A stretch of 40,552 nt of DNA from an uncultured Pseudomonadota bacterium (GCA_903921785.1 CAIXRH010000064.1:1-40552), one strand, 5' to 3'; positions 16,725-30,875 are shown, numbered from the stretch's first letter. The notes: a model not told the origin generated them from the sequence alone. Numbers and translations are program-made.

Positions 16725-17636
16725 GTGCTGTTCCTTATGCTCGCTTGTGCACCCGCGGACGAGACCGTCCTTGAGCCGGGCTGCGACCTGTGCGCGCTCA
16801 CCGATGCCAACCAGTACCGGCTCTCCGCGGAGCTCACCGCCGCCGAAGCGCTGCTCGCCCCTGGCAAAGACGTGGTGATCGACTTCGCGGGGCTCACGCA
16901 GGACCTCCAGGGCCACCCCGTGGACCCCGCGGTCGACATCGATCAGGTCTCCCTCCTGGCGTTCCGCAACCTGGCGCCGGCGGAGATCCGCGAGCGTCTG
17001 GTCAACGATGAGCTCCAGCAGTCCGACGTCGCAGGCTGGCTCACCGCCTACCCCACGGGCACCACCGTTCAGCTCTCCGGCTTCGGCACGAGCGGAAACA
17101 CGGTGGACGCGCCCGACTACTTCGTCGGCGGCACCACCTGGATGGTCATCCTCGCCCGCGACGAAGGCTCCACCGCCGCCTCCGTCGCGTTCTTGCTCCC
17201 CTCGGAGAGCGCCGCCGAGGAGAAGGTGATCGTGGACAACTCCACCAGCCGCCTCGCCGTGGATGTCGACCTCGCCGCGTTCGCGCCCGTGATCGTCGAG
17301 CCCGGCCGTACGGACGTCGTGCTCGACTGGTCGGCCGTGGAGACCGACGGCTTCGGCCACGAATTCGTACGCTCGACCGCCACCGAGCTGGCGCTCTACC
17401 GCTTCGACGAGACGCCTGAGGCGCTCTCTTCCGCCGCCCTCGACCTCGACGCGCTGGTGGATGAGTCCTGGACTCTCCAGCTCAACGGCCGGCCCGAGGC
17501 CACACTCGACGATCTCCGTGGTGAAACCGCGTTCACCGGAATCTCCACCGGTTCCACGTGGGTGATGATGCTGCGCGCAGCCGACAGCCTCAACCCCGCC
17601 CCGTATCTGCTCACCCGCCTCAAGGCCGCCCGGTGA
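16725..17636 (+). CDS. Predicted lipoprotein with ultra-short signal peptide
   Basis: From the GTG at 16725 the protein has 303 residues and begins VLFLMLAC, a seven-residue signal peptide ending in a lipobox. An ATG 126 nt upstream is in frame but would add a hydrophilic leader inside the divergent promoter region. The mature part has a CDLC pair and then two similar halves with a repeated pattern (VVIDFAGLTQDLQGHPVD and VVLDWSAVETDGFGHEFV), suggesting an internal duplication. No enzyme motif is visible; the two halves resemble beta domains. The stop codon overlaps the start of the next gene (GTGA), so the pair is cotranscribed and likely forms one surface unit. Confidence 0.75.
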   Translation: MLFLMLACAPADETVLEPGCDLCALTDANQYRLSAELTAAEALLAPGKDVVIDFAGLTQDLQGHPVDPAVDIDQVSLLAFRNLAPAEIRERLVNDELQQSDVAGWLTAYPTGTTVQLSGFGTSGNTVDAPDYFVGGTTWMVILARDEGSTAASVAFLLPSESAAEEKVIVDNSTSRLAVDVDLAAFAPVIVEPGRTDVVLDWSAVETDGFGHEFVRSTATELALYRFDETPEALSSAALDLDALVDESWTLQLNGRPEATLDDLRGETAFTGISTGSTWVMMLRAADSLNPAPYLLTRLKAAR

Positions 17637-19024
17637 TCCTGCTGCTCCTCGGTTGTGGCACCGTCGGTGCCCTCCCCTCGGACAGCGCCACCGCCGACAG
17701 CGACAGCGGCCCGGTCGACGCCGACTGCAGCAACGAAGCGGACGCGCACGTCGGCGGATCCGGGGTGGACACGGTGCCCGAGCTGCGCTGGACCGCGCCG
17801 GAAGGCGTCGCAGCCTGGGCGGAGTTCGACAACGGCGACGGGCTGACCCGCACCAGCCGGGTGGGGAGCACGGGTCCCGAACGCAGCGCCCTGCTCCTTG
17901 GCGTGCTCCCCGACGTTTCCTTCAACTGGCGGGTCTTCGTCAGCGACGCCGACGGCGCCCGCTGCGTCGGCGCCGGCACGGCCAGCAACGGCGCGCTGCC
18001 CGCTGGCGTGCCCGCGAGCGAAGGGACGGCCGCGAGCGGCGCCATCGACGGCTTCACCGCCGCGCCCATCCTCGTCCCCGGCGTCACCGACGAACAGTGG
18101 ATGATGATCTTCGACGGGCAGGCGCGCGTGATCTGGGCGAACCCGGTGAAGGGGGTCAACGGCACGATCTTCTCGACCGAGTTCGAGCGGGGGCAGGACG
18201 CCCTCCTCTTCCTGGTGCAGACCACCTCCGCCGACCTCGACGGCAGCATCCACCGCCTCAGCTTCAACGGCCAGCAGACCGTCGTGGCCACGGCTCCGGG
18301 CCTCCACACCGACTTCACGCAGCTCGGCGACGGCCGCTACGCCGGGTTGACCTGGGAGCTCCGCGACATCGGCAGCGACCGGGTGCTCGGCGACCACGTG
18401 GTCACCCTCGACGAGGGCGGGGCCACCACCGTGTGGAACGCCTTCGACGAAGAGCCGTACATCCCCTCCGACAAGTGGGAGGCCGGCTTCTACGTGCCGG
18501 ATCCGACCGCGCTCGACTGGAGCCACGTCAACAGCATCTCGTGGGACGAAGCGAGCGACGACCTGGTGATCACCGGCGCGGGCTACGACATGGTCGCGCG
18601 CCTCTCGGCGAGCACCGGGGAGACCCGGTGGCTCTTCGCCAACGGCATCGGGGACTATCCGGATACCGCCACCGTGAGCCTGTTTCCGCACGGGGCATCG
18701 ATCCTCCCCGATGGCGATGTGCTCCTGTTCAACCGCGGCGACTTCCTCCACGATCCCCTCCACACCTGCTCGTGGGTCAGCGAGGTCCATGTGGACACGG
18801 CCGCGACGACCGTGACCGAACGCAGCCGCCTCACGGGCGAGTCGTGCCTGCTCACGAGCTTCCTGGGCAACGCCGAGCGGATCGCCGACGATGTCACCTT
18901 TGTCGACTGGACCTCGGCCGGCCGCATCGATCAGCTCGCCGCCGATGGCACGTCCCTCTGGAATGTGTCGCTCAGCGCGGGTCGGGCGTTCGCCACCGCC
19001 GACTTCCGGGCGGCGGGCGAATAA
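17633..19024 (+). CDS. Arylsulfotransferase-like (ASST-type beta-propeller) lipoprotein
   Basis: From the GTG at 17633, which overlaps the previous stop codon, the protein has 463 residues. It starts VILLLLGC, again a seven-residue signal peptide, followed by a low-complexity Asp/Ser/Thr linker. The middle and C-terminal parts resemble bacterial arylsulfate sulfotransferases and related propellers: a propeller blade at ARVIWANP, then DWSHVNSISWDEASDDLVIT, STGETRWLF and FPHGASILPDGDVLLFNRGD. In true ASST enzymes a His in such loops transfers sulfate between phenols, and His residues occur here in the equivalent SHVN and PHGA positions. Activity is not certain, since many relatives are uncharacterised. 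The gene ends 10 nt from the convergent egtD stop codon. Confidence 0.78.
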   Translation: MILLLLGCGTVGALPSDSATADSDSGPVDADCSNEADAHVGGSGVDTVPELRWTAPEGVAAWAEFDNGDGLTRTSRVGSTGPERSALLLGVLPDVSFNWRVFVSDADGARCVGAGTASNGALPAGVPASEGTAASGAIDGFTAAPILVPGVTDEQWMMIFDGQARVIWANPVKGVNGTIFSTEFERGQDALLFLVQTTSADLDGSIHRLSFNGQQTVVATAPGLHTDFTQLGDGRYAGLTWELRDIGSDRVLGDHVVTLDEGGATTVWNAFDEEPYIPSDKWEAGFYVPDPTALDWSHVNSISWDEASDDLVITGAGYDMVARLSASTGETRWLFANGIGDYPDTATVSLFPHGASILPDGDVLLFNRGDFLHDPLHTCSWVSEVHVDTAATTVTERSRLTGESCLLTSFLGNAERIADDVTFVDWTSAGRIDQLAADGTSLWNVSLSAGRAFATADFRAAGE

Positions 19025-19034
19025 CGCCGCGAGA

Positions 19035-19961
19035 TCAGGCAGCCAGCAGCAGCACCGCGAAGCGGCTCCCCGCGTCCGTCCACGTTTGCCGAAGCTGGAA
19101 TCCGGCGCGCCCCGCGAGCGCCCCGAAGCCCGGGATGTCGTACTTGTAGGCGTTCTCGGTGTGGATCGTCTCACCCGCGGCCATCGAGAATCGTCGGCCG
19201 GCGACGTGGAACACCACCGCCTCGCGCGCCTGGAGGTGCATCTCGACCCGACCGAGCGCGGCGTCCACCCGGGAGAGATGCCCGAACTGGGCCAGCACGA
19301 AGTCGGCCGCATACCTTCGGTTGAGGTGGGCGAGCGCGTTCTTGTTGAAGGCCGCGGTGACCCCCTCGCGGTCGTCGTAGGCGCGGCGGAGCACCGCCGG
19401 GTCCTTCCAAAGATCCACGCCGATCAAGAAACGCCCGCCGGGACGCACGATCTCCCGCATGTTCGCCAGGAAGTGTACGGCGTCGTCGGGATCGAAGTTG
19501 CCGATGGTGGACCCGGGGAAGAACCCGATTCGCCGGCCCTCCGGGAGGGCTGGGAGCGTGAACGGCTCGTGGTAGTCCGCCTCGACGGCCATGACCGTCA
19601 CCTTCGGGAAGGCCTCTTCCAACCTCGACGCGCCCGCGGTGAGCGCCGTGACCGACACGTCGATGCCGACGTAGGCGACCGCGGGGAGATGCGCCAGGAG
19701 CGACGCAGCCTTCGCGCCGCTTCCGCAGCCCGGCTCCACCATCACCACCCGGGCGGCGCCGTCCGCCGCCGCCATCGCCATCTCGACCGCGTGCTCCCGA
19801 AAGATCTCCGCCTCTACCCGGGTGGGGTAGTAGTCCTCCACCGTGGTGATCCGGTCGAACAGCCCCGAGCCTGCCTCGTCGTAGAACAAGGTCGGAGGCA
19901 GGGTCTTCGGGGACGAGGCGAGGCCGTGGAGCACCACCCGCAAGAGGCGATCGTCGGTCAT
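19035..19961 (-). CDS. egtD: L-histidine N(alpha)-methyltransferase EgtD
   Basis: This protein trimethylates histidine to hercynine with S-adenosylmethionine, the first step of ergothioneine synthesis. Family blocks are TLPPTLFYDEAGSGLFDRIT near the start, YYPTR, MVEPGCGSGAKA as the SAM loop, FFPGSTIGNF, and the C-terminal HTENAYKY. I chose the ATG at 19961 (308 residues) because GGAG lies 5 nt before it. An ATG at 19991 would add ten residues and overlap the egtB stop codon by 8 nt. The gene follows egtB in the same direction, so hercynine production and its oxidation partner are coexpressed. Confidence 0.95.
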   Translation of the reverse strand: MTDDRLLRVVLHGLASSPKTLPPTLFYDEAGSGLFDRITTVEDYYPTRVEAEIFREHAVEMAMAAADGAARVVMVEPGCGSGAKAASLLAHLPAVAYVGIDVSVTALTAGASRLEEAFPKVTVMAVEADYHEPFTLPALPEGRRIGFFPGSTIGNFDPDDAVHFLANMREIVRPGGRFLIGVDLWKDPAVLRRAYDDREGVTAAFNKNALAHLNRRYAADFVLAQFGHLSRVDAALGRVEMHLQAREAVVFHVAGRRFSMAAGETIHTENAYKYDIPGFGALAGRAGFQLRQTWTDAGSRFAVLLLAA

Positions 19962-19983
19962 CGCGGCTCCGTTCGCGGGGAGC

Positions 19984-21219
19984 TCAGACATCCTGGGCCA
20001 GCCGCACCCCGGTGAACTGCCACCGGTCCTTGGGGTAGAAGAAGTTCCGGTACGAAGTCCGCGAATGCGATCGCGGGGTAGCGCACGAGGCGCCTCGGAG
20101 CACCATCTGGCTCACCATGAACTTGCCGTTGTACTCGCCGAACGCCCCCTCGGCCGCGCGGTAGCCCGGGTAGGGGGAGTACGCCGAGGCGGTCCATTGC
20201 CAGGCGTCGCCGAAGCCCTGGCGGAGCCCCGGCGCGTCACCAGCGGGGCTCGGGTGCCACTGCCGCCCCTCCACGAACGGGCCGTCGTCGGCGCGGAGGG
20301 CGGAGAACGCGAACTCCCACTCGGCCTCGGTGGGCAGACGGGCGCCGGCCCAGCGAGCGAAGGCGTCCGCCTCGAAGCAGGAGACGTGCACCACGGGCTC
20401 GTCGGGGCCGCGCTTCCGGAGGCCGGAGAGGGTGAAGTGGGCGTCGCCTTCCCAGTACAGCGGCGCGCGGATGTCGGTCGCGGTTCGCCACGCCCACCCC
20501 TCGGAGAGCCACAAAAGCGGCCGGTCATAGCCGCCATCGGCGATGAACGACTCCCACTCGGCGACGGTGACGAGTCGGTCTGCGAGGCGGAACCGTTCCA
20601 GCCAAGCCTTGTGGCGGGGGCCCTCGTTATCGAACGAAAACCCCGGACCCGTGGTGCCGATCTCCACCAGACCCTGCGGGAACTCCACCCAGCCGGGCGT
20701 ACGCGCAGCCGGGGCCACGATCGGCGCGGGGGCTCGGTAGGCCGGGCGAAGGGGGTTGGCCGCGAGGTGATGTTTCAGATCCGTGAGGATGAGCTCCTGG
20801 TGCTGCTGCTCGTGGTGGAGCCCGAGCTCCATCGCGCCCGCCGCCGCGTGCCACGCCTCCGCCGACGCGGTGGCCGCAAAGTTCGCGAGCTGCTCGTCCA
20901 CCGCCACGCGCCAGGCGATCACCTCCGCCAGGGAAGGCCGGGAGAGGTCGCCGCGACGCGGCCGGGCGTGACGCGGGCCGACGGACTCATAGTAGGAGTT
21001 GAACAGGAAGGACCAACCCGGGTTGTACGGGGCCAGCCCCGCGTGAGGGCCAAGCACGAACGCCTCGAAGAACCAGGTCGTGTGCGCGAGGTGCCACTTC
21101 ACGGGACTGGCGTCGGGCATCGACTGGACCTGACAGTCTTCGCCGGAGAGCCCGTCGGCGAGCGCCACGGTCGCGTTGCGTACAGCGAGGAGGCTCGCCG
21201 CCAGCGTTTCCCGGTCCAT
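19984..21219 (-). CDS. egtB: Ergothioneine biosynthesis protein EgtB (sulfoxide synthase)
   Basis: This 411-residue non-heme iron enzyme joins a thiol donor to hercynine with oxygen. It has the two expected parts: an N-terminal DinB-like helical domain with iron ligands in WHLAHTTWFFE (His43/His46) and LHHEQQHQEL (His136/His140), and a C-terminal formylglycine-generating-enzyme fold (RLPTEAEWEFA, GDAWQWTASAYSPYPGY, GEYNGKFM, RNFFYPKDRWQFTGVRLA). No egtA, egtC or egtE is present. Members of this type may use cysteine or gamma-glutamylcysteine; the sequence does not let me decide. It sits just upstream of egtD. Confidence 0.96.
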   Translation of the reverse strand: MDRETLAASLLAVRNATVALADGLSGEDCQVQSMPDASPVKWHLAHTTWFFEAFVLGPHAGLAPYNPGWSFLFNSYYESVGPRHARPRRGDLSRPSLAEVIAWRVAVDEQLANFAATASAEAWHAAAGAMELGLHHEQQHQELILTDLKHHLAANPLRPAYRAPAPIVAPAARTPGWVEFPQGLVEIGTTGPGFSFDNEGPRHKAWLERFRLADRLVTVAEWESFIADGGYDRPLLWLSEGWAWRTATDIRAPLYWEGDAHFTLSGLRKRGPDEPVVHVSCFEADAFARWAGARLPTEAEWEFAFSALRADDGPFVEGRQWHPSPAGDAPGLRQGFGDAWQWTASAYSPYPGYRAAEGAFGEYNGKFMVSQMVLRGASCATPRSHSRTSYRNFFYPKDRWQFTGVRLAQDV

Positions 21220-21304
21220 GCCCGCCTCGGTGGTCGGCGTCTAACGTGCCCGTGAAGGGCGAACACGGAGGATCCGTGCCGCGGCGAGCGCCCCCCGGAT
21301 CGAC

Positions 21305-22333
21305 CTACACCGGAAAGGCAACCCGGCCGGGGTCCCACGTAGCCCAGGTCTCCGGCGGGACGGCGGCGCTGCGCACCTGGCCCCACCACCCGGTGAGCTT
21401 GAGCTCGCCGGAGAGCAGCGCCGCCTGGATGCTGGACAGGCAGCGGTGGCCGTACACCGCAAGCGCCGGCTCGGGACGCCCGTCGACCAGCGGATAGACC
21501 AGGTCGGCCGTGGGGGAACCGGACGCCAGAAGTCCGCGGAGCAGGGCGACGGGCGCCGCGTGATGGCGGGCACCGACCAGGAGCACCTCGGGCGTGTCGC
21601 CGGAGGCGAGGCCGGTGAACAGCGCTCCGAGGAGACCGAGCTGCGGCCGTAGATCGCCGACGACGCGTACGCGCCCGGTCAAGGACGCGGCGGAGACCGC
21701 GACCGCCGGCGCGGCCACCACCAACGCCGGCGCGTCCAGCTCACGCGAGAGCCGCTCGGCCACCGACACCGTCGCCGCGAGCCCCTCGGCCTCCGCCACC
21801 GGCAGGACCAACGTCGGCCGGCGCGGCGGAGCGGCGACGCCAAAGCGCGCCCACACCCACTCCGCCACCGCCGCTGCGTCGCCCAACGGCAGTACCGGCA
21901 GCTCCGTCGCCACCGCAACGTCGCTCGCCCAGGCGATGACGTGCTTGGGCGGCGCCCACCCCTCCGTGGAAGGACCGCCTTCGCGGTGGACCCGGATCGT
22001 CGGGAGCCCCGAGCCGCGGAAGCCCTCGGCGAGCACGAGGTCGGCGTCGCCAAGGAGGCGCTGCACCACGTGGACCAGAGAGACCTCGCCTTCGAGGCGC
22101 TGAAACAGGGCGAGGCGCTCGGCGCTGAGCACGGCGACGCAACCGGCGCCCGCCTCCGAGAACCGCCAGGAGTCTTTGCCCGGCTTGTCGAGCACCAGTC
22201 GGTGCGCGTCGGACTTCAGCACCCCGATCCGTAGTCCCCGGCCGACAAGCTCGCGGATCACGCCTTCGAGGAGGGTCGTCTTCCCGGTGCCGGAGGGAGC
22301 GGCGAAGGCGACGATCGGCGGCAGGCGCGACAT
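21305..22333 (-). CDS. MobB-type GTP-binding protein fused to a degenerate MobA-like domain
   Basis: This 342-residue protein has two domains. Residues 1-165 are MobB, a GTP-binding adaptor of molybdenum cofactor guanylylation, with P-loop APSGTGKTTLLE (12-23), the KSDAHRL block and LVLAEGFRGSGLPTI. Residues 170-342 follow the MobA fold order (GLLGALFTGLASGDTPEVLLVG, then YPLVDGRPEPALAVYG and the WDPGRV end). They lack the canonical nucleotide-binding start L-A-G-G-x-S-x-R-M-G-x-D-K and the D-x-P metal motif. No other molybdenum cofactor gene is in the window. It may support bis-MGD assembly with the MobA part serving as a scaffold; that is an inference. Confidence 0.8.
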   Translation of the reverse strand: MSRLPPIVAFAAPSGTGKTTLLEGVIRELVGRGLRIGVLKSDAHRLVLDKPGKDSWRFSEAGAGCVAVLSAERLALFQRLEGEVSLVHVVQRLLGDADLVLAEGFRGSGLPTIRVHREGGPSTEGWAPPKHVIAWASDVAVATELPVLPLGDAAAVAEWVWARFGVAAPPRRPTLVLPVAEAEGLAATVSVAERLSRELDAPALVVAAPAVAVSAASLTGRVRVVGDLRPQLGLLGALFTGLASGDTPEVLLVGARHHAAPVALLRGLLASGSPTADLVYPLVDGRPEPALAVYGHRCLSSIQAALLSGELKLTGWWGQVRSAAVPPETWATWDPGRVAFPV

Positions 22334-22366
22334 GGGCGCCGGCTAATCCGGCGCAAGCCGCGCCGC

Positions 22367-23662
22367 CTACGCCGCCGGGACCAGCTTGCTGCCGCGCCAC
22401 AACAGCGCGGCTGCCGCGATGCAGCACAGCGGGGCCACCATCAGCGCGTCGCGGGCGGCCATGGGCACCGCAGCGCCGCCGAGCATGTCCGCCAGCTGCC
22501 CGGTGAGCGGGGGCGCGATGCCGTAGCCGACGAGGTTGACCACGAAGAGATAGGCGCCGACCGCGAGGCCGCGCTGCGCGGGCCCGGCGATCGTCACCAC
22601 GTCCGCGGCGGCGGGGCCCAGCCAGGCGAGACCGAGCCCGAGCAGCAGCACGTACGCGGCGAACATCACCGGGAGGCTGCCGCTGTGCAGCAAGACGAGC
22701 CAGAGCGGGGCGCAGGCCATCGCGAGCACCGCGGAGAAGCGCATCCGCCCGCCCGGGTGGTGGGCGCGCCAGCGGTCGCCGAACCAGCCGCCGAAGGCCG
22801 TGGCCAGGCCGCCGGCGAAGAGGCTGCCGAAGCCGCCGAGGAGACCGATGTCGGTCTTCGCCACCCCGAAGCCCAGCTCCAAGAGCTTGGGCACCCAGAT
22901 GGAGAGCGAGTAGCTGGCGGCGGCGAACAACGCGTACCCGGCGACGTGCCAGCGGAACGCCGGCGCGCCGATCACCCCTCGCCAGTCCGCGGGGACCGGC
23001 GTCGCGGCGGCCGGGGTGGTGCGGGCCGGCTCGGGGAGCATCCACACGAGCACCGCGAGCGCCACGCCAGGGAAACCAAGGAAGTAGAACGCCTGCCGCC
23101 ATCCGTAAGCCTGCCCGATCCAGCTCCCCAGGAAGAACGCGGCCGCGGCACCGAGCGGCACACCAGCGCAGTAGATCGACTGCACCGTGGCACGGCGGCG
23201 GGGCGGAAACCAGTCGGCCAGCAAGGAAAGCGCGGCCGGGCCGAGGCTGGCCTCCCCGATCCCGACCATCACGCGGCAGGCGAACAACGTCCAGAAGTCG
23301 TGGGCGAGGCCGGTGAGCCCGGAGAAGAGGCTCCAGGTGAACAGCCCCGCGGCGATCATCTTGGTGCGCGGCACGCGGTCGGCGAGGCGGCCGAAGGGCA
23401 CCCCAAGGAGCGTGTAGAAGATCACGAAGGAGGTGGTGCCGAGGAACGCCAGCTCGCGGTCCCCGAGGGCGAACTCCGTCTTGATCGCCCCGAACTGCAT
23501 GAGGATCAGGTTGCGGTCGAGGAAGTTGAAGACGTACACCAGCCCGAGGAGGGCGAGGCCACGGATCGCGGCCGGGTCGGTCGCGGCTTCCATCGGCGCA
23601 GCGCCCATGCTGTGCTGCGGCGCAGCGGTAGGCATCGCGGGGGCGGCGAGGGTGGTGGACAT
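22367..23662 (-). CDS. Spinster-like MFS transporter
   Basis: From the ATG at 23662, which has GGAG 6 nt upstream, this protein has 431 residues and about twelve membrane helices. The first helix contains VYVFNFLDRNLILM, characteristic of the Spinster/MFS_1 subgroup. The loop 2-3 motif is GVPFGRLADRVPRTKMI, and helix 4 has RVMVGIGEASLGPAALSLLADWFPP. A 35-residue hydrophilic N-terminal extension precedes helix 1. The substrate is unknown; relatives carry lipids, organic acids or amino-acid derivatives. The mobB-like gene follows after 33 nt, then egtB and egtD on the same strand, so cotranscription is possible. Confidence 0.9.
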   Translation of the reverse strand: MSTTLAAPAMPTAAPQHSMGAAPMEAATDPAAIRGLALLGLVYVFNFLDRNLILMQFGAIKTEFALGDRELAFLGTTSFVIFYTLLGVPFGRLADRVPRTKMIAAGLFTWSLFSGLTGLAHDFWTLFACRVMVGIGEASLGPAALSLLADWFPPRRRATVQSIYCAGVPLGAAAAFFLGSWIGQAYGWRQAFYFLGFPGVALAVLVWMLPEPARTTPAAATPVPADWRGVIGAPAFRWHVAGYALFAAASYSLSIWVPKLLELGFGVAKTDIGLLGGFGSLFAGGLATAFGGWFGDRWRAHHPGGRMRFSAVLAMACAPLWLVLLHSGSLPVMFAAYVLLLGLGLAWLGPAAADVVTIAGPAQRGLAVGAYLFVVNLVGYGIAPPLTGQLADMLGGAAVPMAARDALMVAPLCCIAAAALLWRGSKLVPAA

Positions 23663-23686
23663 CCGAAGCTCCAGGGGCGCCCGCAC

Positions 23687-23713
23687 GCTATCGTGCATGC
23701 TGCGCTGCGTCAA
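23687..23713 (-). promoter_or_regulatory. Possible promoter/operator of the MFS gene
   Basis: On the minus strand TTGACG (23713-23708) is followed after 15 nt by GATAGC. The latter lies inside a palindrome, GCACG-ATAG-CGTGC. Position upstream of the GGAG-led ATG is right, but spacing is short. This is a weak prediction. Confidence 0.3.
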
Positions 23714-23778
23714 GACGTCACGCCGCAATGCAGTACGCGCCCCGTGCCGCAGGGTCGGGCGGGCCTTCAGGTCGTGCG

Positions 23779-23840
23779 CTCGGCCTCCTTGGCTCGCCGC
23801 CGGTGGCTCCTCGACCGCCGACCTGGCCGGGTGGCAGGGC
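23779..23840 (+). repeat. Dispersed intergenic repeat, family B copy
   Basis: It contains TTGGCTCGCCGCCGG followed by TGGCTCCTCGACCGCCGACC and closely matches the minus-strand copy at 14690-14735. It lies between the MFS gene start and the lipoprotein stop at 23882. Confidence 0.7.
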
Positions 23841-23881
23841 GGTATGGCGCCGCCAGCCCGTGGACAGGTAAGCCGAAGTCC

Positions 23882-24901
23882 CTACCGCCACCCCTCGACG
23901 ATCACCTCGTCGCGCACCAGCGGCGACGCGAAGCTCACGCCCCACTCCGCAGCGTTCCACCCCGCACGATCGACGGGCTGGAGCTGCGGCTCCGGCACGG
24001 CTGCACAGCCGTCGGTGACGTAGAACCAGGCGCGCAACAGATGCTCCGGGACCGGCTCGATGACCAGCGAGCTGAACTCGACCTGCGGGTACACGGTCAT
24101 CCACTCCGCGGCAGGGAAGCTCGGGTCCCAGGCGTCGGAGAAGTCTTCGATCTCACTGGGGAAGAAGCCGAGGCCGGCCATCGCGTCCTCGATGCTGGCC
24201 TGCGCGAGGTCGCCCCGGACACACCACCCGGCCTCCGTCTGGAAGCGCTCCACCGGCCAGCGGAGCTCGTAGAACAAGTAGTCCCGCGCGCCCTGGGGCG
24301 TCGCGAGCCGGCCATCCGGGAACGCCCGGACCCGCCAGCCGTCCGCGGGGTACAGCGGGTCCGTCTCCGTGAGGCGCCGCGCGGGAACGCTGACGCGGAC
24401 GTTCATCGGCCGCGTCGGGTAGAGGTAGACGTTCGGCTTGTCGACCTGGGCTTCGTACCCCAGCTCCACGAGCGCCTCGGTGGCGCAGACGTCTGTGCCG
24501 GTGATGTCCACCGCGGCGCAGCCCGACCAGCCGCCGCCCGCGACCACCTCCACGCCGTAGCTCCCCGGCTCTACGGTCGCGTCGAAGTGATCGTCGACCA
24601 CGTCGCCGCCGGTGACGGTCTCGCCGTACCAGGTTGAGCCGGTGTCAACGTTGATGCACGCGGTTTGATCGGCCGCGATCGTGGCGACGAAGGCGGTGCC
24701 ACCGAGGGGCGCTTCGCCGGGGCGGCTCACGGTGACGCAGAGGTTGCCGGTCGGGCTCCAGGTTCCGGTATCCCCCGTGTCGGCGGTGTCCGCGGTGTCC
24801 CCCGTGTCGGCGGGGTTGCCGGTGTCGGTGGCCGTCCCGGTGGGGCTCGACGTGGCGCAGGCGGCGAGGAGGGCGACGGTGAACGGGAGGAGACGTTCCA
24901 T
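23882..24901 (-). CDS. Predicted lipoprotein with KPxxYLYP domain
   Basis: The ATG at 24901 begins a classic lipoprotein signal peptide (MERLLPFTVALLAAC), followed by a Thr/Asp/Gly repeat linker typical of this genome's surface proteins. The protein has 339 residues. After a Cys-containing beta domain (about residues 50-150) comes KPNVYLYPTRP and a C-terminal region with DYLFYELRWP, GWCVRGD and an aromatic-rich end. I have seen the KPxxYLYP module in unannotated exported proteins of many phyla; its function is unknown to me. It diverges from the exported protein at 24992 and is probably monocistronic. The open frame continues upstream only as a GC artefact. Confidence 0.8.
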   Translation of the reverse strand: MERLLPFTVALLAACATSSPTGTATDTGNPADTGDTADTADTGDTGTWSPTGNLCVTVSRPGEAPLGGTAFVATIAADQTACINVDTGSTWYGETVTGGDVVDDHFDATVEPGSYGVEVVAGGGWSGCAAVDITGTDVCATEALVELGYEAQVDKPNVYLYPTRPMNVRVSVPARRLTETDPLYPADGWRVRAFPDGRLATPQGARDYLFYELRWPVERFQTEAGWCVRGDLAQASIEDAMAGLGFFPSEIEDFSDAWDPSFPAAEWMTVYPQVEFSSLVIEPVPEHLLRAWFYVTDGCAAVPEPQLQPVDRAGWNAAEWGVSFASPLVRDEVIVEGWR

Positions 24902-24991
24902 GCGCTCAACATAGCCACGCGCCGCGCCGGCCGCGCGTCGATGTCGCGGCAGGAGCGTGGGCTGCCGCGTCCGGAGAGGGTACGTACGGCC

Positions 24992-25786
24992 ATGCTCCTC
25001 GCCGCGCTCCTCACCGCCGCCGCCCACGCGGAGGACCTCCTCCCGCGCATCCTCCCGATTCCCCCGGATGCCCACGCCGTGGTCAAGTCGGTGCCGACCG
25101 CCGGGCGGGCGGCGCCCGAGCTCACCCGCGTCAGCGCGGTGAAGAACAAGATCACCGATGAAGACGCCTGGTTCTCCACGAACGACCTCCATCTTCCCGT
25201 GCTCGAAACGCGTCCCGACTGGATGCCCGACGCGATCGGTGGGCGGCCACTGATCCGGGTGATCGATCAGGGGAGCACGCTCACCGCGCTGTTCGGGACC
25301 GGCAACGACGCCAGCGTGGTCGTGGTCTATGGCGCGGACCGGCAGGTTCGCGGCGCGTGGGACGTCGGATCGTGGCTCACGCCGAAGAAGGCCGTTCGGG
25401 GAGACGAGGCGTTCGTCCACGGTGGCGTGCGCTGGGCGTGGATCGTCGAGGACATCCTGTACCTGTCCACCTCCCACCGCACCTACGCGTCCACCTCCTA
25501 CGGTAAAAATGCGTATGTCACCGCCATCGACGTGGCGACCGGAGACCTTCGTTGGCGCTCCGATCCCCTGGTCTGCAATGCGACGTCCTTCGTCGTGATC
25601 CGCGACGCGATCGTCTGCGGCTACGGCTTCACCGGCGAACCCGACGCCATGGTGCTGCTCGACCGCGCCGATGGCCGCGTCTTGAGTCGAACCACGCTCA
25701 GCACGGGTCCCGACTGGTTCGTGCTGGCCGACGACAAGCTCTACGTGCGAACCTACGACACTGACTACGTATTCGGCGTGAAGTAG
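24992..25786 (+). CDS. Exported PQQ/beta-propeller-like protein
   Basis: Starting at the ATG at 24992 (GGAGAGGG about 12 nt upstream), the 264-residue protein has a signal peptide MLLAALLTAAAHA cleaved before EDLL, so it is periplasmic or secreted. An in-frame ATG at 24941 would add 17 residues with a basic n-region and cannot be excluded. The mature part contains propeller-like strands with the turn YVTAIDVATGDLRWRSDP, and later VLLDRADGRVLSRTTLSTGP and ADDKLYVRTYDTDYVFGV, as in outer-membrane PQQ-like repeat proteins. No catalytic site is apparent. It converges on the amidase gene. Confidence 0.75.
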   Translation: MLLAALLTAAAHAEDLLPRILPIPPDAHAVVKSVPTAGRAAPELTRVSAVKNKITDEDAWFSTNDLHLPVLETRPDWMPDAIGGRPLIRVIDQGSTLTALFGTGNDASVVVVYGADRQVRGAWDVGSWLTPKKAVRGDEAFVHGGVRWAWIVEDILYLSTSHRTYASTSYGKNAYVTAIDVATGDLRWRSDPLVCNATSFVVIRDAIVCGYGFTGEPDAMVLLDRADGRVLSRTTLSTGPDWFVLADDKLYVRTYDTDYVFGVK

Positions 25787-25814
25787 GGCGGCACAATCGT
25801 GGTGATGCGGGCCG

Positions 25815-25833
25815 GGCCGGGCGCCCGCCGGCC
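25815..25833. terminator. Hairpin between convergent genes
   Basis: GGCCGG and CCGGCC form a 6-bp stem with a 7-nt loop. It directly abuts the amidase stop codon and lies 28 nt after the plus-strand gene, so it could serve both directions. No T-tract is present. Confidence 0.4.
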
Positions 25834-26706
25834 TCAGCGGTTCGCGCGCACCACCGCCCGGGCCACCGCGCTGGCGAACGCGGGGGCGGTGGCGGGATCG
25901 TCCCAGAGCGCCACGTCGGCGCGGTCGAGCGCCTGGTGGGTCTCCACGATGACCAACGGCACCTTGCTGCGTCGCAGCATCCGGATCCGCTTCTTCATCG
26001 TGTGCCGGTCGACGAAGACCCCCTCCCCTTCTTTGCCGTACAGGCCCGGGTAGTCGGTGCCGTCGTAGGGTTCGAACCCGGCGTCGACCATCGCGGCCGA
26101 CAGCTCGACGGCGAGGCGTCGGCGGGCAGTCACCAGCGGCTCCTCCCCTTCGTCGCTGTAGAGGAGGGCAAAGCCGGTCGCGCCGGTCTCGCCCCAACAG
26201 CCCGACTGCGCGTCGATCGCGGGGTTCGCGGCCGCGCGTGCGTCGCTGTGGAGGCTGATGACAGCGTCGGCGGGCCACGCCGCCAGGTCACGGAGCCGGG
26301 CGTCGTAGGACACGGGGAGGGCATCGGGGCGGCTGGAGCGCACCGTGAGGCCGGAGAAGGCGAAAAGCGCGCGAGCGGTGGCGTCCTGCAGACCGCGGGT
26401 GAAGTCCGCCTCGGCGCGGCAGGTGACCGACGTGTTGCCTCGGTTCTTCTCCTCTCCGTGGCCGGCGTCGACGAGGACGCGGAGCGGGCGGGTCGGTGCT
26501 TCGGGCGGGAGCACCCGCAGGGGACGGCTCACCGGCGGCGAGGGAGGGTCGGCGGGGACGTCGCTGCCGGCGCCGGCGGGAGCCGCGATGGGGAGCGCTT
26601 CCGGAGCTGTGCCGCCCGTGTGGACCGGAGAACCCGTGCCGAACGCCGACGCGCAGGCGAGGAGGAGGAAGCCGGCGAGGAGGACGAGCACGGGACCCCG
26701 AGACAC
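25834..26706 (-). CDS. N-acetylmuramoyl-L-alanine amidase (Amidase_3), lipoprotein
   Basis: From the GTG at 26706 the protein has 290 residues and a signal peptide with an arginine n-region and a lipobox (VSRGPVLVLLAGFLLLAC). A GTG at 26760 is possible but would overlap the upstream gene by 31 nt and bury the signal. A Pro-rich linker leads to the zinc amidase domain, with VLVDAGHGE (first ligand His), a Glu/Asp-rich middle, ISLHSDA (third ligand) and the catalytic Glu in VIVETHQALDR. Such enzymes cleave the bond between MurNAc and the stem peptide. It follows the small cytochrome gene by 23 nt, the last gene of the envelope operon. Inserted segments such as YGKEGEGVFVDRHTMKKR lengthen the domain. 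Confidence 0.88.
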   Translation of the reverse strand: MSRGPVLVLLAGFLLLACASAFGTGSPVHTGGTAPEALPIAAPAGAGSDVPADPPSPPVSRPLRVLPPEAPTRPLRVLVDAGHGEEKNRGNTSVTCRAEADFTRGLQDATARALFAFSGLTVRSSRPDALPVSYDARLRDLAAWPADAVISLHSDARAAANPAIDAQSGCWGETGATGFALLYSDEGEEPLVTARRRLAVELSAAMVDAGFEPYDGTDYPGLYGKEGEGVFVDRHTMKKRIRMLRRSKVPLVIVETHQALDRADVALWDDPATAPAFASAVARAVVRANR

Positions 26707-26729
26707 GTAGCGCGACGCGCGGTTCCCGA

Positions 26730-27095
26730 TCAGGTCCCCGGCGTCCCGCAGCTGAGCCACCAGGTGAGCCGCTGGCGATCGTCCTCCGGGACCCCGCCCG
26801 CGGGGGGCATGCTCGGCATCCCCCCCGTCGAGGACGAGAGGATCGAATCAGCGAACAACCACGCCTGCTCGACCGTGTCGAAGGTGACCTCGTCGGGAGC
26901 GCCGTGGCGATCTGGCGCGGTGGACGCGTGGCAGGTCTGGCACTGTGCGGTGAGGAAGCCCTGCCCGAAGGTCTCCCAGGTGAGGTGCGGCGCATCGACG
27001 CACGGATCGACGTTGGCCGAGGTGTCGGCGGTGTCGACCGGGCCGGAGTCGGAGCCGGTCGGCGGGGAGGCGCACGCCGCGAGAAGGAAGATCAC
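26730..27095 (-). CDS. Small cytochrome c lipoprotein
   Basis: This 121-residue protein starts at a GTG overlapping the upstream stop codon (GTGA). Upstream of it no ATG or GTG occurs in frame before a TGA at 27134-27132, so the signal peptide VIFLLAAC of seven residues is forced. After an Asp/Ser/Thr linker comes a single heme motif CQTCH and a later MPSMPPAGG, whose methionines could be the axial ligand, then a Trp-Trp-Leu end typical of planctomycete-type cytochromes. I infer electron transfer at the membrane with the DUF1592-like and DUF1501 partners encoded just upstream. Confidence 0.85.
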   Translation of the reverse strand: MIFLLAACASPPTGSDSGPVDTADTSANVDPCVDAPHLTWETFGQGFLTAQCQTCHASTAPDRHGAPDEVTFDTVEQAWLFADSILSSSTGGMPSMPPAGGVPEDDRQRLTWWLSCGTPGT

Positions 27096-28366
27096 GCCAC
27101 CACCCCCATGATCGGGTCGACATCTACGTATTCAGCGGGATCCACATCGGCGAGCGCCAGGAGGGTGGCGCCGACCGCTTCGGCAGAGAGCACCTCGCCA
27201 CCGTCGGACACGTCTCCGGAAGCCGGGTCGATGTTGAAGCCGTAGTAGTTGGGATCGAAGCCGCCGATCACCCGGTCGCCGACGAGGCCGTCGCCCCAGA
27301 GGAGCACCGAGGTGAACGGCCAGTGATCCTTGCCCGTGAAGCCGTTGAGCGCGGGAGTGCGCCCCATCTCGGAGAGCAACACCACCACCGTCTCTTCGGC
27401 GAGGGTGGCTGCGGAGGTGCCCGGCGTCTGGCGGAGGCGCTCGATGAGCTGCCCCAGCCCGGCGAACGTGGACTCCCAGAGCGGCGACTGGAGCGCATCG
27501 TTCTGGGTGTGGGTGTCCCAGGCGCCGGGCGTGCCGGCGTTGAGGGTGACACAGCGGCTCACGCCCATGGACAGGGCGTCCGCGGCGACCTGGGCCTGGG
27601 CGTCGAGATCGGCGCCGGCGGTGAAGTCGATGGACCACGCGAGGTCCTTGAGGTCTTCGAGATGGGCGAGCGACGCCGCGTAGTCCTGGGTGAGGCTGCG
27701 CTCCAGCGCCGACCGCGAGGCGTCGGCCCGCGCGGCGGCGCGACGCGCCATCCAGCGGTCGACCACCTTCTCGGAGGGCGCCTTCATCGTGCCCCCGACC
27801 GGGGTGTCCGTCCAAGTGAGCGCGCGACGGGAGAGGAGGGCTTCGAGCTGGCCCGAGGCCCCGGTGCGGGCCACGGCGACGCCCAGGCTGCCGGGGAACG
27901 ACGGGCCGCCGAGGACGAGGTGTGGGAGGGTGAACGCCTCGCGGTCTGCGCCAGCGATCGCCGCCGGCCAGTCGGGAGACACCCCGGACGTCGTGCCGGT
28001 CATGGCGATCATCGTGCAGATCTCGTGGGCGATCGAGCGCACCATCACCCCGTTGAACACGACCGTGTCCGCGTGGTTCGCCTCGAAGAACGTGCGCACG
28101 CTGGGCCGAGAGGGGTGGTCGACAAACGACAGGTTGCCGACGGTGGCGAGCGCGCCGTCGGGCTCCATCGCCACGGCGGAGTTGGCGTACTCGGTGGCGA
28201 AGACCCGCGTCGGGTCCCAGCCACCCTGGGCGAAGACGAAGATGAACTTCCGGCCGCTGGCGGGCGTCGCCGCGAAGGACCGGGCGGGCAGCCCGGCCGC
28301 CGCCAACGCCGCGCCGCCAACCCCCAGGTGGGCCCCGTTTCGCAGGAATTCTCGACGGTTGAGCAT
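27092..28366 (-). CDS. DUF1501 family protein, Tat-exported
   Basis: From the ATG at 28366 the protein has 424 residues. The N-terminus has the twin-arginine signal NRREFLRNG followed by a hydrophobic stretch and ASF-type cleavage, so it is exported folded. The DUF1501 blocks are FIFVFAQGGWDPTRVF, GTTSGVSPDWPAAIAG, TLNAGTPGAWDTHTQND and VVLLSEMGRTPALNGFTGKD-HWPF. This family is related to the sulfatase/alkaline phosphatase superfamily but its reaction is unknown. The gene sits 11 nt after the DUF1592-like gene; a GAGG ribosome site overlaps that stop codon. The combination of DUF1501 with a cytochrome partner recurs in Planctomycetota and Myxococcota. Confidence 0.9.
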   Translation of the reverse strand: MLNRREFLRNGAHLGVGGAALAAAGLPARSFAATPASGRKFIFVFAQGGWDPTRVFATEYANSAVAMEPDGALATVGNLSFVDHPSRPSVRTFFEANHADTVVFNGVMVRSIAHEICTMIAMTGTTSGVSPDWPAAIAGADREAFTLPHLVLGGPSFPGSLGVAVARTGASGQLEALLSRRALTWTDTPVGGTMKAPSEKVVDRWMARRAAARADASRSALERSLTQDYAASLAHLEDLKDLAWSIDFTAGADLDAQAQVAADALSMGVSRCVTLNAGTPGAWDTHTQNDALQSPLWESTFAGLGQLIERLRQTPGTSAATLAEETVVVLLSEMGRTPALNGFTGKDHWPFTSVLLWGDGLVGDRVIGGFDPNYYGFNIDPASGDVSDGGEVLSAEAVGATLLALADVDPAEYVDVDPIMGVVA

Positions 28367-28377
28367 CGGGGGTTCCC

Positions 28378-29949
28378 TCAGTAGTAGAGGAAGTCGGGGT
28401 CGCGGAGGAGGGCGGAGAGCACGCCGGCCCAGGCGGCCTTGCCGTCTCGCTCCACGGCGTACAGCGAGGACCAGAGCTCGAGGCCGGCGGCGACCTCCTC
28501 GCCGTCGGCGGCCACGCGGTGGCCGTAGAGCCGGAGGTGCAACGCCTGGAGCTGCGCGGCCATGCCGGCCCGATCCGTCTCGGGGGTGGCCGCGAAGTCG
28601 ACCGTGAACAGCCGCTCCGGCCCCTCGTTGACCACGTACGCGCTCGCCGCCTCGGCGAGGCGCTCCTGCACCAGGAGCAATGTGGCGTTCGGCGAGGTGG
28701 CCGTGCTGGTGACGTTGTACCCGTCGGCGCCGCCGGCGAGGGTGCGGAAGCCGACGGCGTCGGAGCCGAGGAGATCGTAGCCGCCATATTCCCAACGGAA
28801 CCCGGTCAGGTCCTCGACCTCCGCGGCCAGCAGGTCCGGGGTGGCCATCTTCAGGGGAACGTACCCAGCTTCGTCCGTGGCGCCGGCGCGGTAGCGTGGG
28901 TCGGCGAGCACCGTCCGGAAAAGCGCCCGCACCGTGAGCCCGTCGGCGACGAAGTCGTTCCGGTGCTCGACCAGCGCCGCGGTGTCCGCGAGGGCGATCT
29001 TGCGGCGCAGCAAAAGTTCGTAGGTCTGCTGCACCGCGCATTGCGGGAAACGCCGATCGGCCGCGATCTGCTCCCCGAGCTCGTGCAACGAGTACCCGGG
29101 CACGCCGTAGTAGGCGGGCGCGACGCCGGTGTAGTCGCGATACCGCTGCTCACGGGCCGGGAAGTACGTGGAGGCCTCCAACGGGTTGGTGTAGTCGTAC
29201 CACCAGAAGCCGAAGAGGTAGCTGGCGAGCGGGTCGAGCGAGTTGTGGCAGCTCTGGCAGCTCGGGTTCTCCCGCAGCGCGTCCTGCACGGCGTCGCCGT
29301 CGAGGAGGTTCACGTTGCGGTCGAAGTCGATGGGACGGGAGAGGTAGTCGTCGCAGAGGAAGATGCGGCTGATGGCGTTCGCGCGCTTCCGATTGGCGTT
29401 GCTGGTGGTCGAGGGGTAGCGCCACCAGAGGCTGTTGGTGCTGAGCACCCCCGCGGCCGGCCGCCCATCGGTGTAGTGCGCCTTGAGCCATCCCTCACCC
29501 TCCGGGCGATCGATCGGCCAGGCCGCGGCGAGGGTCTCATCCGCCACGGTGAAGGCCCCGGTGACCAGGGTCGAGTAGGGCAGGTCCTGGTCGGCGACGT
29601 AGCCGAGAAGCTGGAGGTCCTCCTCGCCGACAGCGCGCTGGAACGCCACGTCGTCGAGGCCGTAGGCCGACCCGGCGATGAGGAACGACTCCGTGCGGGT
29701 GAGGTAGACCTCACTCCAGAGGTCGCGGACGCGGGCGGGGAAGCCGGGGTCGTGCAGCCAGGTCTCGGTGAGCGCATCGAGCGCGGCGGGGTCGGCCTCC
29801 ACGGCGGCGATCTCCGCCTCGGTCGGGCGCTTCCCGCGCACGTCGAGAGAGATGCGCTCGGCGAGGGCCACGGCGCCCATCTCGGGCGCGGGCGTGACGG
29901 CGGCGCTGTCGCCGGGATCGGTGGCGCACGCGGCGAGGAGGAGGATCAT
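28378..29949 (-). CDS. DUF1592/DUF1588-like cytochrome lipoprotein
   Basis: From the ATG at 29949, which overlaps the previous stop codon (ATGA), the protein has 523 residues. It begins MILLLAAC, a seven-residue signal peptide. A helical N-terminal half carries RIFLCDDYLSRPIDFDRN, then a heme motif in NPSCQSCHNSLDPLA. The region FPQCAVQQTYELLLRRKIA to LFRTVLADPRYRA matches the DUF1588/1585-type tail of planctomycete cytochromes. I expect heme attachment outside the cell membrane. Substrate and partner are unknown; the following DUF1501 gene is its probable companion. Upstream starts exist in frame but lie inside the preceding gene. Confidence 0.85.
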   Translation of the reverse strand: MILLLAACATDPGDSAAVTPAPEMGAVALAERISLDVRGKRPTEAEIAAVEADPAALDALTETWLHDPGFPARVRDLWSEVYLTRTESFLIAGSAYGLDDVAFQRAVGEEDLQLLGYVADQDLPYSTLVTGAFTVADETLAAAWPIDRPEGEGWLKAHYTDGRPAAGVLSTNSLWWRYPSTTSNANRKRANAISRIFLCDDYLSRPIDFDRNVNLLDGDAVQDALRENPSCQSCHNSLDPLASYLFGFWWYDYTNPLEASTYFPAREQRYRDYTGVAPAYYGVPGYSLHELGEQIAADRRFPQCAVQQTYELLLRRKIALADTAALVEHRNDFVADGLTVRALFRTVLADPRYRAGATDEAGYVPLKMATPDLLAAEVEDLTGFRWEYGGYDLLGSDAVGFRTLAGGADGYNVTSTATSPNATLLLVQERLAEAASAYVVNEGPERLFTVDFAATPETDRAGMAAQLQALHLRLYGHRVAADGEEVAAGLELWSSLYAVERDGKAAWAGVLSALLRDPDFLYY

Positions 29950-30875
29950 CCTGCCCCCGGCGGCGTGAGCAACCCCGAGAAGTCGACCCCGCAGACGGCT
30001 CCGAGGTCCTCCCCACGGAAGTAGACCTCTCCGCAGCCGTCGCACCGATCGGCCTCCACGGGGGCGTCGTAGGTGGCCGGGCCGTCGTAGATCACGTCGT
30101 ACCAGCTCCCGTCGGCGTCGCGCACGCTGACCACCCCGGCGGGCTCTCCGGGGCAGTCGGCCATGATGTTCTCGCTCATCAGGTACACCCCGTCGAAGAC
30201 GACGGCCTGGGTCCCGTCGCCGAGGCCGCCGAGGCTGCCGGAGAGCGACACCGCGCGCCCCTCATACGAGGGGGCGTAGTAGGTGTAAAGCGAGAGATCG
30301 GGCCCCGCGTCGGCCTCCAGCCAGCTGCCCGCCACCAGCGGCCCGCTCCCCTGGAAGCCTCCCTGGATCACCAGGTAGTAGCCCGAGTACCAGCTCGGGT
30401 CGTCGACCGGGAGCTGAGAGGTGATTTGGATGGCGTAGGTGCTGCCGCCGAACTCGATGCCCGAGCCGTCGGCGCCCTGGATGCTCCCGACGCCGTTGAG
30501 CGCCGCGCCGTCCCAGTACGAACCATCGCCCGCGTCGGTGCCGGCGTAGAGTTGGTAGAAGCTGTATCCGGAGAACTGGGTACCATCCGCGGCAGTGCAG
30601 GTGTCGTACCAGTAGGCGCTGCCGTCGTAGTCATAATAGTTCGGACAGCCGCTGCTCGCGCGCGCCATCCCCGCCTCGTAGGCGGTGAAGATGGGTGACG
30701 CACTGTAGTCCCATACGGCGCCGACACCCTCGCTGACCAGCCCCGTCACCTCCTCGAGCGACAACGCCGCCACCGGAGGCGCGTCCTCCTCATAGATGTA
30801 CGGGGTATCGGCCGCCGGCGCGGAGTCGGCGGTGGTGGGCTCCGGCTGGACGCACGCAAAGCCGAAGAGCAGCAT
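29946..30875 (-). CDS. Tyr/Gly-rich predicted lipoprotein, first gene of the cytochrome operon
   Basis: This 309-residue protein starts at the ATG at 30875, preceded by GGAGG 7 nt upstream; no in-frame ATG or GTG precedes it. The signal peptide MLLFGFAC has only seven residues before the lipid-anchored Cys. The mature part is acidic and very rich in Tyr, Gly, Ser and Asp, with paired cysteines (CPNYYD, DTCTA, DRCDGCG), which suggests a secreted beta-rich domain with disulfides. I cannot place it in a family. It is the leading gene of a five-gene operon and overlaps the next gene by 4 nt. Confidence 0.8.
   Translation of the reverse strand: MLLFGFACVQPEPTTADSAPAADTPYIYEEDAPPVAALSLEEVTGLVSEGVGAVWDYSASPIFTAYEAGMARASSGCPNYYDYDGSAYWYDTCTAADGTQFSGYSFYQLYAGTDAGDGSYWDGAALNGVGSIQGADGSGIEFGGSTYAIQITSQLPVDDPSWYSGYYLVIQGGFQGSGPLVAGSWLEADAGPDLSLYTYYAPSYEGRAVSLSGSLGGLGDGTQAVVFDGVYLMSENIMADCPGEPAGVVSVRDADGSWYDVIYDGPATYDAPVEADRCDGCGEVYFRGEDLGAVCGVDFSGLLTPPGAG

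Follow-up and report, generated by a model that had tools for sequence, protein, structure and literature searches.

Ultrashort, uncharged signal peptides on putative lipoproteins in a lineage of the Myxococcota

Five genes in a 40,552-nucleotide stretch of DNA from an uncultured bacterium (GCA_903921785.1 CAIXRH010000064.1:1-40552; the whole stretch is called the window here) begin with seven residues that run directly into a cysteine. We consider it very likely (probability about 0.82) that these five are genuine extracytoplasmic lipoproteins, canonical Sec-Lgt-Lsp substrates with a minimal signal, and that this signal is a trait of the lineage. We document below the start codons, the enrichment of short signals, their distribution over the lineage, the comparison of homologues, the type of cargo and the occurrence of lspA and lgt, while use of Sec, lipidation and cleavage are inferred.

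Results

Five putative lipoprotein genes with cysteine at residue 8

All five N-termini place Cys at residue 8 with no Lys, Arg or His ahead of it (Table 1), as described by an earlier sequence-only reading of the window. The lipobox is standard in four of them; MLLFGFAC (30875) is atypical, with Gly at -3, and orthologues of this gene carry the lipobox Cys at the matching place (e.g. MFFVWMFAC and MSPLLLLLAC). The starts at 17633 (GTGA), 27095 (GTGA) and 29949 (ATGA) each form a 4-nt overlap with the stop codon of the preceding gene, and GGAGG lies just 5′ of the start at 30875. All five short starts were picked by a codon-model gene finder without knowledge of lipoboxes. Two of them are forced, with an in-frame stop 12 codons upstream of 27095 and 32 codons upstream of 30875 and no ATG, GTG or TTG between; the claim that these two genes lack a longer ATG or GTG start thus held, and extends to TTG. 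Longer in-frame candidates exist for the other three (GTG16599 and TTG16656 for 16725, GTG17558 for 17633, GTG30045 for 29949). VIFLLAAC is the sole candidate signal of the 121-aa cytochrome at 27095, a protein that should be exported because attachment of c-type haem happens outside the cytoplasm.

Table 1. Genes of the window with short uncharged signals; a slash marks the putative cleavage site.
Coordinates	Strand	Product	Signal	Remarks
16725..17636	+	lipoprotein, 303 aa	VLFLMLA/C	no recognisable domain
17633..19024	+	lipoprotein, 463 aa, arylsulfotransferase (ASST) domain	VILLLLG/C	PF05935 E=3.3e-12
26730..27095	-	lipoprotein, 121 aa, CQTCH haem c motif	VIFLLAA/C	
28378..29949	-	lipoprotein, 523 aa, PSCyt2/PSCyt3 (DUF1549/DUF1588)-like, CQSCH motif	MILLLAA/C	
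29946..30875	-	lipoprotein, 309 aa	MLLFGFA/C	operon neighbour of PSCyt-like lipoprotein
25834..26691	-	Amidase_3 protein	VLVLLAGFLLLA/C	signal from GTG26691; Cys13, no basic residue; intermediate case
24992..25786	+	protein with SPI-type short uncharged signal	MLLAALLTAAAHA/EDLL	shortening not limited to lipoproteins

The signals of the other lipoproteins in the window measure 14 (23882, minus strand), 16 (1900, plus), 18 (38511, plus) and 24 residues (34192, minus), so that the 14-18 residues originally given for them were slightly too narrow a range. The Asp/Ser/Thr linkers at the mature N-termini, also pointed out by that reading, are not distinctive, being about equally common after long signals. 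The amidase, if begun at GTG26691, has the N-terminus VLVLLAGFLLLAC; the gene finder preferred GTG26760. Between 23882 and 30875 the minus strand carries a row of genes that includes a lipoprotein, the PSCyt2/3 (DUF1549/1588)-like lipoprotein, a Tat-type DUF1501 protein, the small c-type cytochrome and the amidase. The PSCyt-like protein belongs to a large paralogous family; a single genome of the order can encode as many as 14 homologues.

Short signals are enriched genome-wide and are missed by motif rules

The genome of the window (G000) comprises 7.48 Mb in 362 contigs at ~70% GC, of which we sampled 695 kb with 534 called genes. When trained on the longest ORFs, the gene finder mistook antisense frames of this GC-rich DNA for genes; a GC3-seeded version was used instead, trained on 299 kb of G000 and relying on codon statistics with a small bonus for start codon and Shine-Dalgarno (SD) sequence. 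In the sample, 71 genes showed a lipobox preceded by hydrophobic, uncharged residues, and in 38 of these the Cys fell at residues 7-11 (2 at 7, 13 at 8, 9 at 9, 12 at 10 and 2 at 11), without a single Lys or Arg before it. Two parts of the original description therefore required correction: the length of seven residues is not fixed, 6-10 being common, and the feature is not confined to five genes, since it is genome- and lineage-wide and also found in SPI signals. When residues 2-31 of the 534 proteins were shuffled (200 runs), a mean of 0.29 and a maximum of 3 proteins had a lipobox Cys at or before residue 11, compared with the 38 observed. The strict Cys8 DNA pattern (Met/Val, four hydrophobic residues, one further residue, Ala/Gly, Cys8) matched the whole genome 77 times and its reversed control once; within the sampled part, 10 of 12 matches coincided with the start of a called gene, and the remaining two likewise look like lipoproteins. 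By extrapolation, G000 would hold several hundred such short-signal genes.

One objection is that these proteins are neither lipoproteins nor exported, and that their N-termini merely form short hydrophobic patches on proteins that are cytoplasmic or peripheral. In its favour, about six hydrophobic residues are fewer than a Sec h-region normally requires, and proteomics is absent. Against it, Cys is selected at +1: substituting N, Q, D or K for Cys in the search returned no gene at all. S and T returned 9 and 11; these matches partly resemble short SPI signals, and S and T are five times commoner than Cys. The lipobox profile is normal, alike in short and long signals. The cargo also speaks against the objection: besides the arylsulfotransferase, the cytochrome c with CxxCH and the PSCyt-type domains of the window, the mature domains found genome-wide include GH16, CotH, pectinacetylesterase, FG-GAP/ASPIC, GH31, NHL, Ig-like, MopE-type and an NMT1-type binding protein. 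Judged by domain families, the cargo is mostly cell-surface or periplasmic, as expected of extracytoplasmic proteins. Homologues in a sister family, moreover, carry standard lipoprotein signals (see below). We regard this alternative as very unlikely. The best-supported reading remains that all five are true lipoproteins whose signals are ultrashort and uncharged; lipidation and cleavage at the Cys are strongly implied by the sequence, with no protein-level data behind them.

Reviews describe lipoprotein signals as a positive n-region followed by an h-region and a lipobox (PMC9360617, PMC8048626), and one recent lipoproteome gives a mean Cys position of 21.4 ± 2.7 (PMC13068155). The PROSITE PS00013 rule wants the Cys between residues 15 and 35. 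The short signals meet neither requirement, with Lys or Arg in the n-region in 0/5 window genes and 0/38 genes of the sample. The prediction that such signals would be missed held for motif rules, as PS00013 and G+LPPv3 (motif from PMC13068155, with the excluded-residue set of v2) caught none of the five. Across the sample both accepted 0/38 short signals, and G+LPPv3 matched 11/33 long ones; classic motif rules found 17/71 lipoproteins overall.

The short starts are unlikely to be annotation errors

A second objection is that the starts are mis-annotated and that the real start lies further upstream, whether a longer ATG/GTG candidate or a non-AUG codon, so that the protein includes an ordinary Arg-containing n-region. 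Consistent with this, three of the five window genes have longer in-frame candidates, some upstream candidate is available in 22/38 short genes, and the upstream frames are rich in Arg. However, in 16/38 short genes the in-frame stop is reached without any ATG, GTG or TTG, and in several of them it lies a mere 3-13 codons away; examples are the RlpA genes (stop)EES-MLLLFLVAC and (stop)SSAPRYPPG-MLLFLTLIAC. According to the codon model the upstream frames lack a coding signature, and in operonic genes their Arg content is explained by the out-of-frame ends of the preceding genes. Initiation signals are also placed at the short start. An SD core was found at -14..-5 upstream of 17/38 short lipoprotein genes, against 5 in a control window, and TANNNT (-10-like, of the leaderless type) at -14..-11 in 7/38 against 0. 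The SD bonus of the gene finder slightly favours the former result, except for the forced starts, at which the SD core was present in 8/16 against 3/16 in the control window. Mis-annotation is thus very unlikely. Separately, the presence of TANNNT 11-14 nt 5′ of starts in G000 (e.g. L115:10919, L013:13896) suggests many leaderless transcripts.

SPI-type signals are shortened as well

In G000, 41/534 genes have an uncharged N-terminus in which an A-x-A site lies 9-14 residues from the start and hydrophilic sequence follows, compared with 5/909 genes of control bacteria (distant bacteria found via glycyl-tRNA synthetase alpha). Examples are MLLLALSTAFA/LDAS, MLLLLAASAFA/DVAY and MLFLASVAFA/APLN. 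A few of the 41 contain Cys and may be lipoproteins missed by the stricter filter. Short hydrophobic uncharged N-termini as a whole make up 15.5% of G000 genes and 2.1% of control genes.

These signals bear on a third alternative, in which the lipoproteins are carried across by a Tat-exported partner (hitchhiking) and the short lipobox end directs lipidation only. Two points support it: the Tat-type DUF1501 protein (MLNRREFLRN..., 27092-28366) sits between two lipoproteins of the 30875-25834 operon, and there is a precedent in the Desulfovibrio vulgaris [NiFeSe] hydrogenase (Valente et al. 2007, cited in PMC8048626), which is reportedly exported together with a Tat partner. Against it, no Tat gene adjoins 16725 or 17633; the feature is shared by hundreds of unrelated proteins, including c-type cytochromes, which are exported unfolded; and the SPI signals are likewise short, with cleavage sites of their own. 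We therefore judge hitchhiking very unlikely as well and retain the reading of minimal Sec/SPII signals.

Homologues differ in the n-region and retain the cysteine

In RlpA, known as a lipoprotein of E. coli, the short form occurs as (stop)EES-MLLLFLVAC (G262), MLPLLLALLGC (G210), (stop)SSAPRYPPG-MLLFLTLIAC (G092) and VIALLVALGC (G306), compared with VRRLLPYIFILALNSAC and MRLLLLALPLLVAC in the sister family f2. The best PSCyt-like protein per genome begins with MVMWLLAC, VVTWLLAC, VILFLAC, MVIFLMAC or VIALWLAC in families f1 (the family of the window) and f5, and with MVRPLLFCLALTSC, MTRTLATLALLLISC or MRHLTLSLALLLAASC in f2. Homologues of the gene at 29946-30875, the upstream neighbour of the PSCyt-like gene, begin with MSPLLLLLAC directly after a stop codon in G097, and elsewhere with MFFVWMFAC, MLTILMFAC or MTLILAALAC. 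For all three proteins the sister-family signals are mostly Arg-containing with Cys at 13-17, whereas the counterparts in the window's family consist of Met, a hydrophobic stretch and Cys at 7-11, often forced by in-frame stops. Arg is still present in a few f1 members (G097 VVARTLVTLSLLALVSC and several upstream-neighbour genes). We infer from these sequences that the Arg-bearing n-region was lost and the core shortened, while the Cys and the mature part were retained. Homologues with conserved upstream residues had been named in advance as what would refute the short starts; the comparison favoured the short starts instead, same-family homologues being equally short and often stop-forced.

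The minimal signal is not universal, because some conserved lipoproteins of the same genomes keep a longer one: Pal retains one Arg and about 14 residues (MLRILMFLPLLLVGC). Pal was set aside as an orthologue test on account of this short but Arg-containing signal. BamD was also set aside, as most BamD proteins of this order are not lipoproteins. BamD (TIGR03302) is usually a lipoprotein; here (L179-L208) the lipobox Cys is missing in nearly all genomes of the order, where BamD has SPI-type signals, and in G083 and G306 this SPI signal has also lost its basic residues.

The trait is concentrated in one order of the Myxococcota

MYXO-CTERM tags, described as universal in Myxococcota (PMC11980579), gave 35 matches in G000 and were found in 0/14 control genomes; relatives carry them too. 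By this content we place the host lineage in the Myxococcota. The strict Cys8 pattern was surveyed in 379 genomes of the phylum, among which the window's family f1 is represented by 22 sampled genomes of six genera. All 22 showed 10-121 matches, with at most 3 control matches each. In other families of the same order, high counts were found in three genera, with 112 matches in G083 and 58 in G306 (f5) and 85 in G328 (f6), and 19 matches occurred in G092 (f3); the remaining members of f5 and f6 showed 2-7. Nearly all the rest of the phylum showed 0-17, and 30 genomes outside the phylum, reached through loci, 0-7. The trait is thus found in f1 and in parts of two or three other families of the order, through either a single gain with losses or several gains.

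G000 has two lspA genes (PF01252), both Asp motifs being present, and six lgt-like genes (PF01790). A special LspA or Lgt that tracks the trait was considered and rejected: multiplicity is order-wide, and strongly enriched genomes include G262, with a single lspA. Across the order we found no change in lspA or lgt that tracks the short-signal trait. As separate observations, lspA is duplicated in tandem at G083:C93, G306:C761, G328:C23 and G025:C89 (L243, L250, L247, L259), with lgt directly after the pair in G083 and G306; the G000 copies lie on separate contigs, one adjoining lgt; and the tree suggests several independent lspA duplications. The lgt-like genes number three to six per genome across the order.

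Discussion

The signals described here resemble the Sec/SPII signals captured by PS00013 and G+LPPv3 in their lipobox ([LVIF][A/L/S/T][A/G]C), hydrophobic core, linker-like mature N-terminus, extracytoplasmic cargo and accompanying lspA and lgt. They differ in being short, at roughly half of textbook length, and devoid of basic residues, with an n-region of Met only, an h-region of about five residues and Cys at 7-11 rather than ~15-25. Likewise, the SPI-type signals of G000 have the A-x-A sites of ordinary Sec/SPI signals but are shortened and uncharged, the cleavage site coming after 9-14 residues where 20-30 would be usual. An E. coli Lpp signal stripped of all basic residues has been studied (Vlasuk et al. 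1983, cited in PMC9360617); charge is therefore perhaps not strictly required. That laboratory case is likewise a lipoprotein signal without basic residues, but it was engineered and is near full length, whereas the myxobacterial form is natural, shorter and spread over hundreds of genes. The D. vulgaris [NiFeSe] hydrogenase similarly is a lipidated protein without a standard lipoprotein signal, but it is a single enzyme, whereas the myxobacterial short signal is a general lineage trait. No report of natural ultrashort or uncharged lipoprotein signals was found in the open-licence literature searched, which is weak evidence of novelty.

In the mechanism we propose, the signal would be reduced to the initiator fMet, about five hydrophobic residues and the lipobox. 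The protein would enter the Sec translocon on its hydrophobic core alone, the free N-terminal amine being the only positive charge; Lgt would then add diacylglycerol to the Cys, and Lsp (LspA) would cut before the Cys within the membrane, releasing a peptide of 6-10 residues. Such minimal signals most likely derived from ordinary ones through loss of the Arg-containing n-region, the reduction having gone furthest in lipoproteins, and about half of the lipoproteins and many SPI-exported proteins of the lineage would use them. The lineage may tolerate them through altered targeting or an altered translocon, or merely through relaxed selection. In a bolder reading, towards which we lean slightly less than away, SecA/SecYEG/SRP and both signal peptidases have changed so that Met, 5-8 hydrophobic residues and a cleavage site suffice for hundreds of SPI and SPII substrates even though the n-region is not positively charged. 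If this were true, the rules of positive charge and h-region length would be host-dependent and not general.

By convention, signal peptides in general are expected to have a basic n-region and no fewer than 7-8 residues in the h-region, and motif rules have these requirements built in. A lineage in nature that dispenses with both, over hundreds of genes, would allow the needs of Sec, Lgt and Lsp to be tested directly. Since classic motif rules find 0/38 short signals and 17/71 lipoproteins overall, estimates of the secretomes and lipoproteomes of these environmental bacteria may be too low, and for this clade it may be necessary to retrain gene callers and signal predictors.
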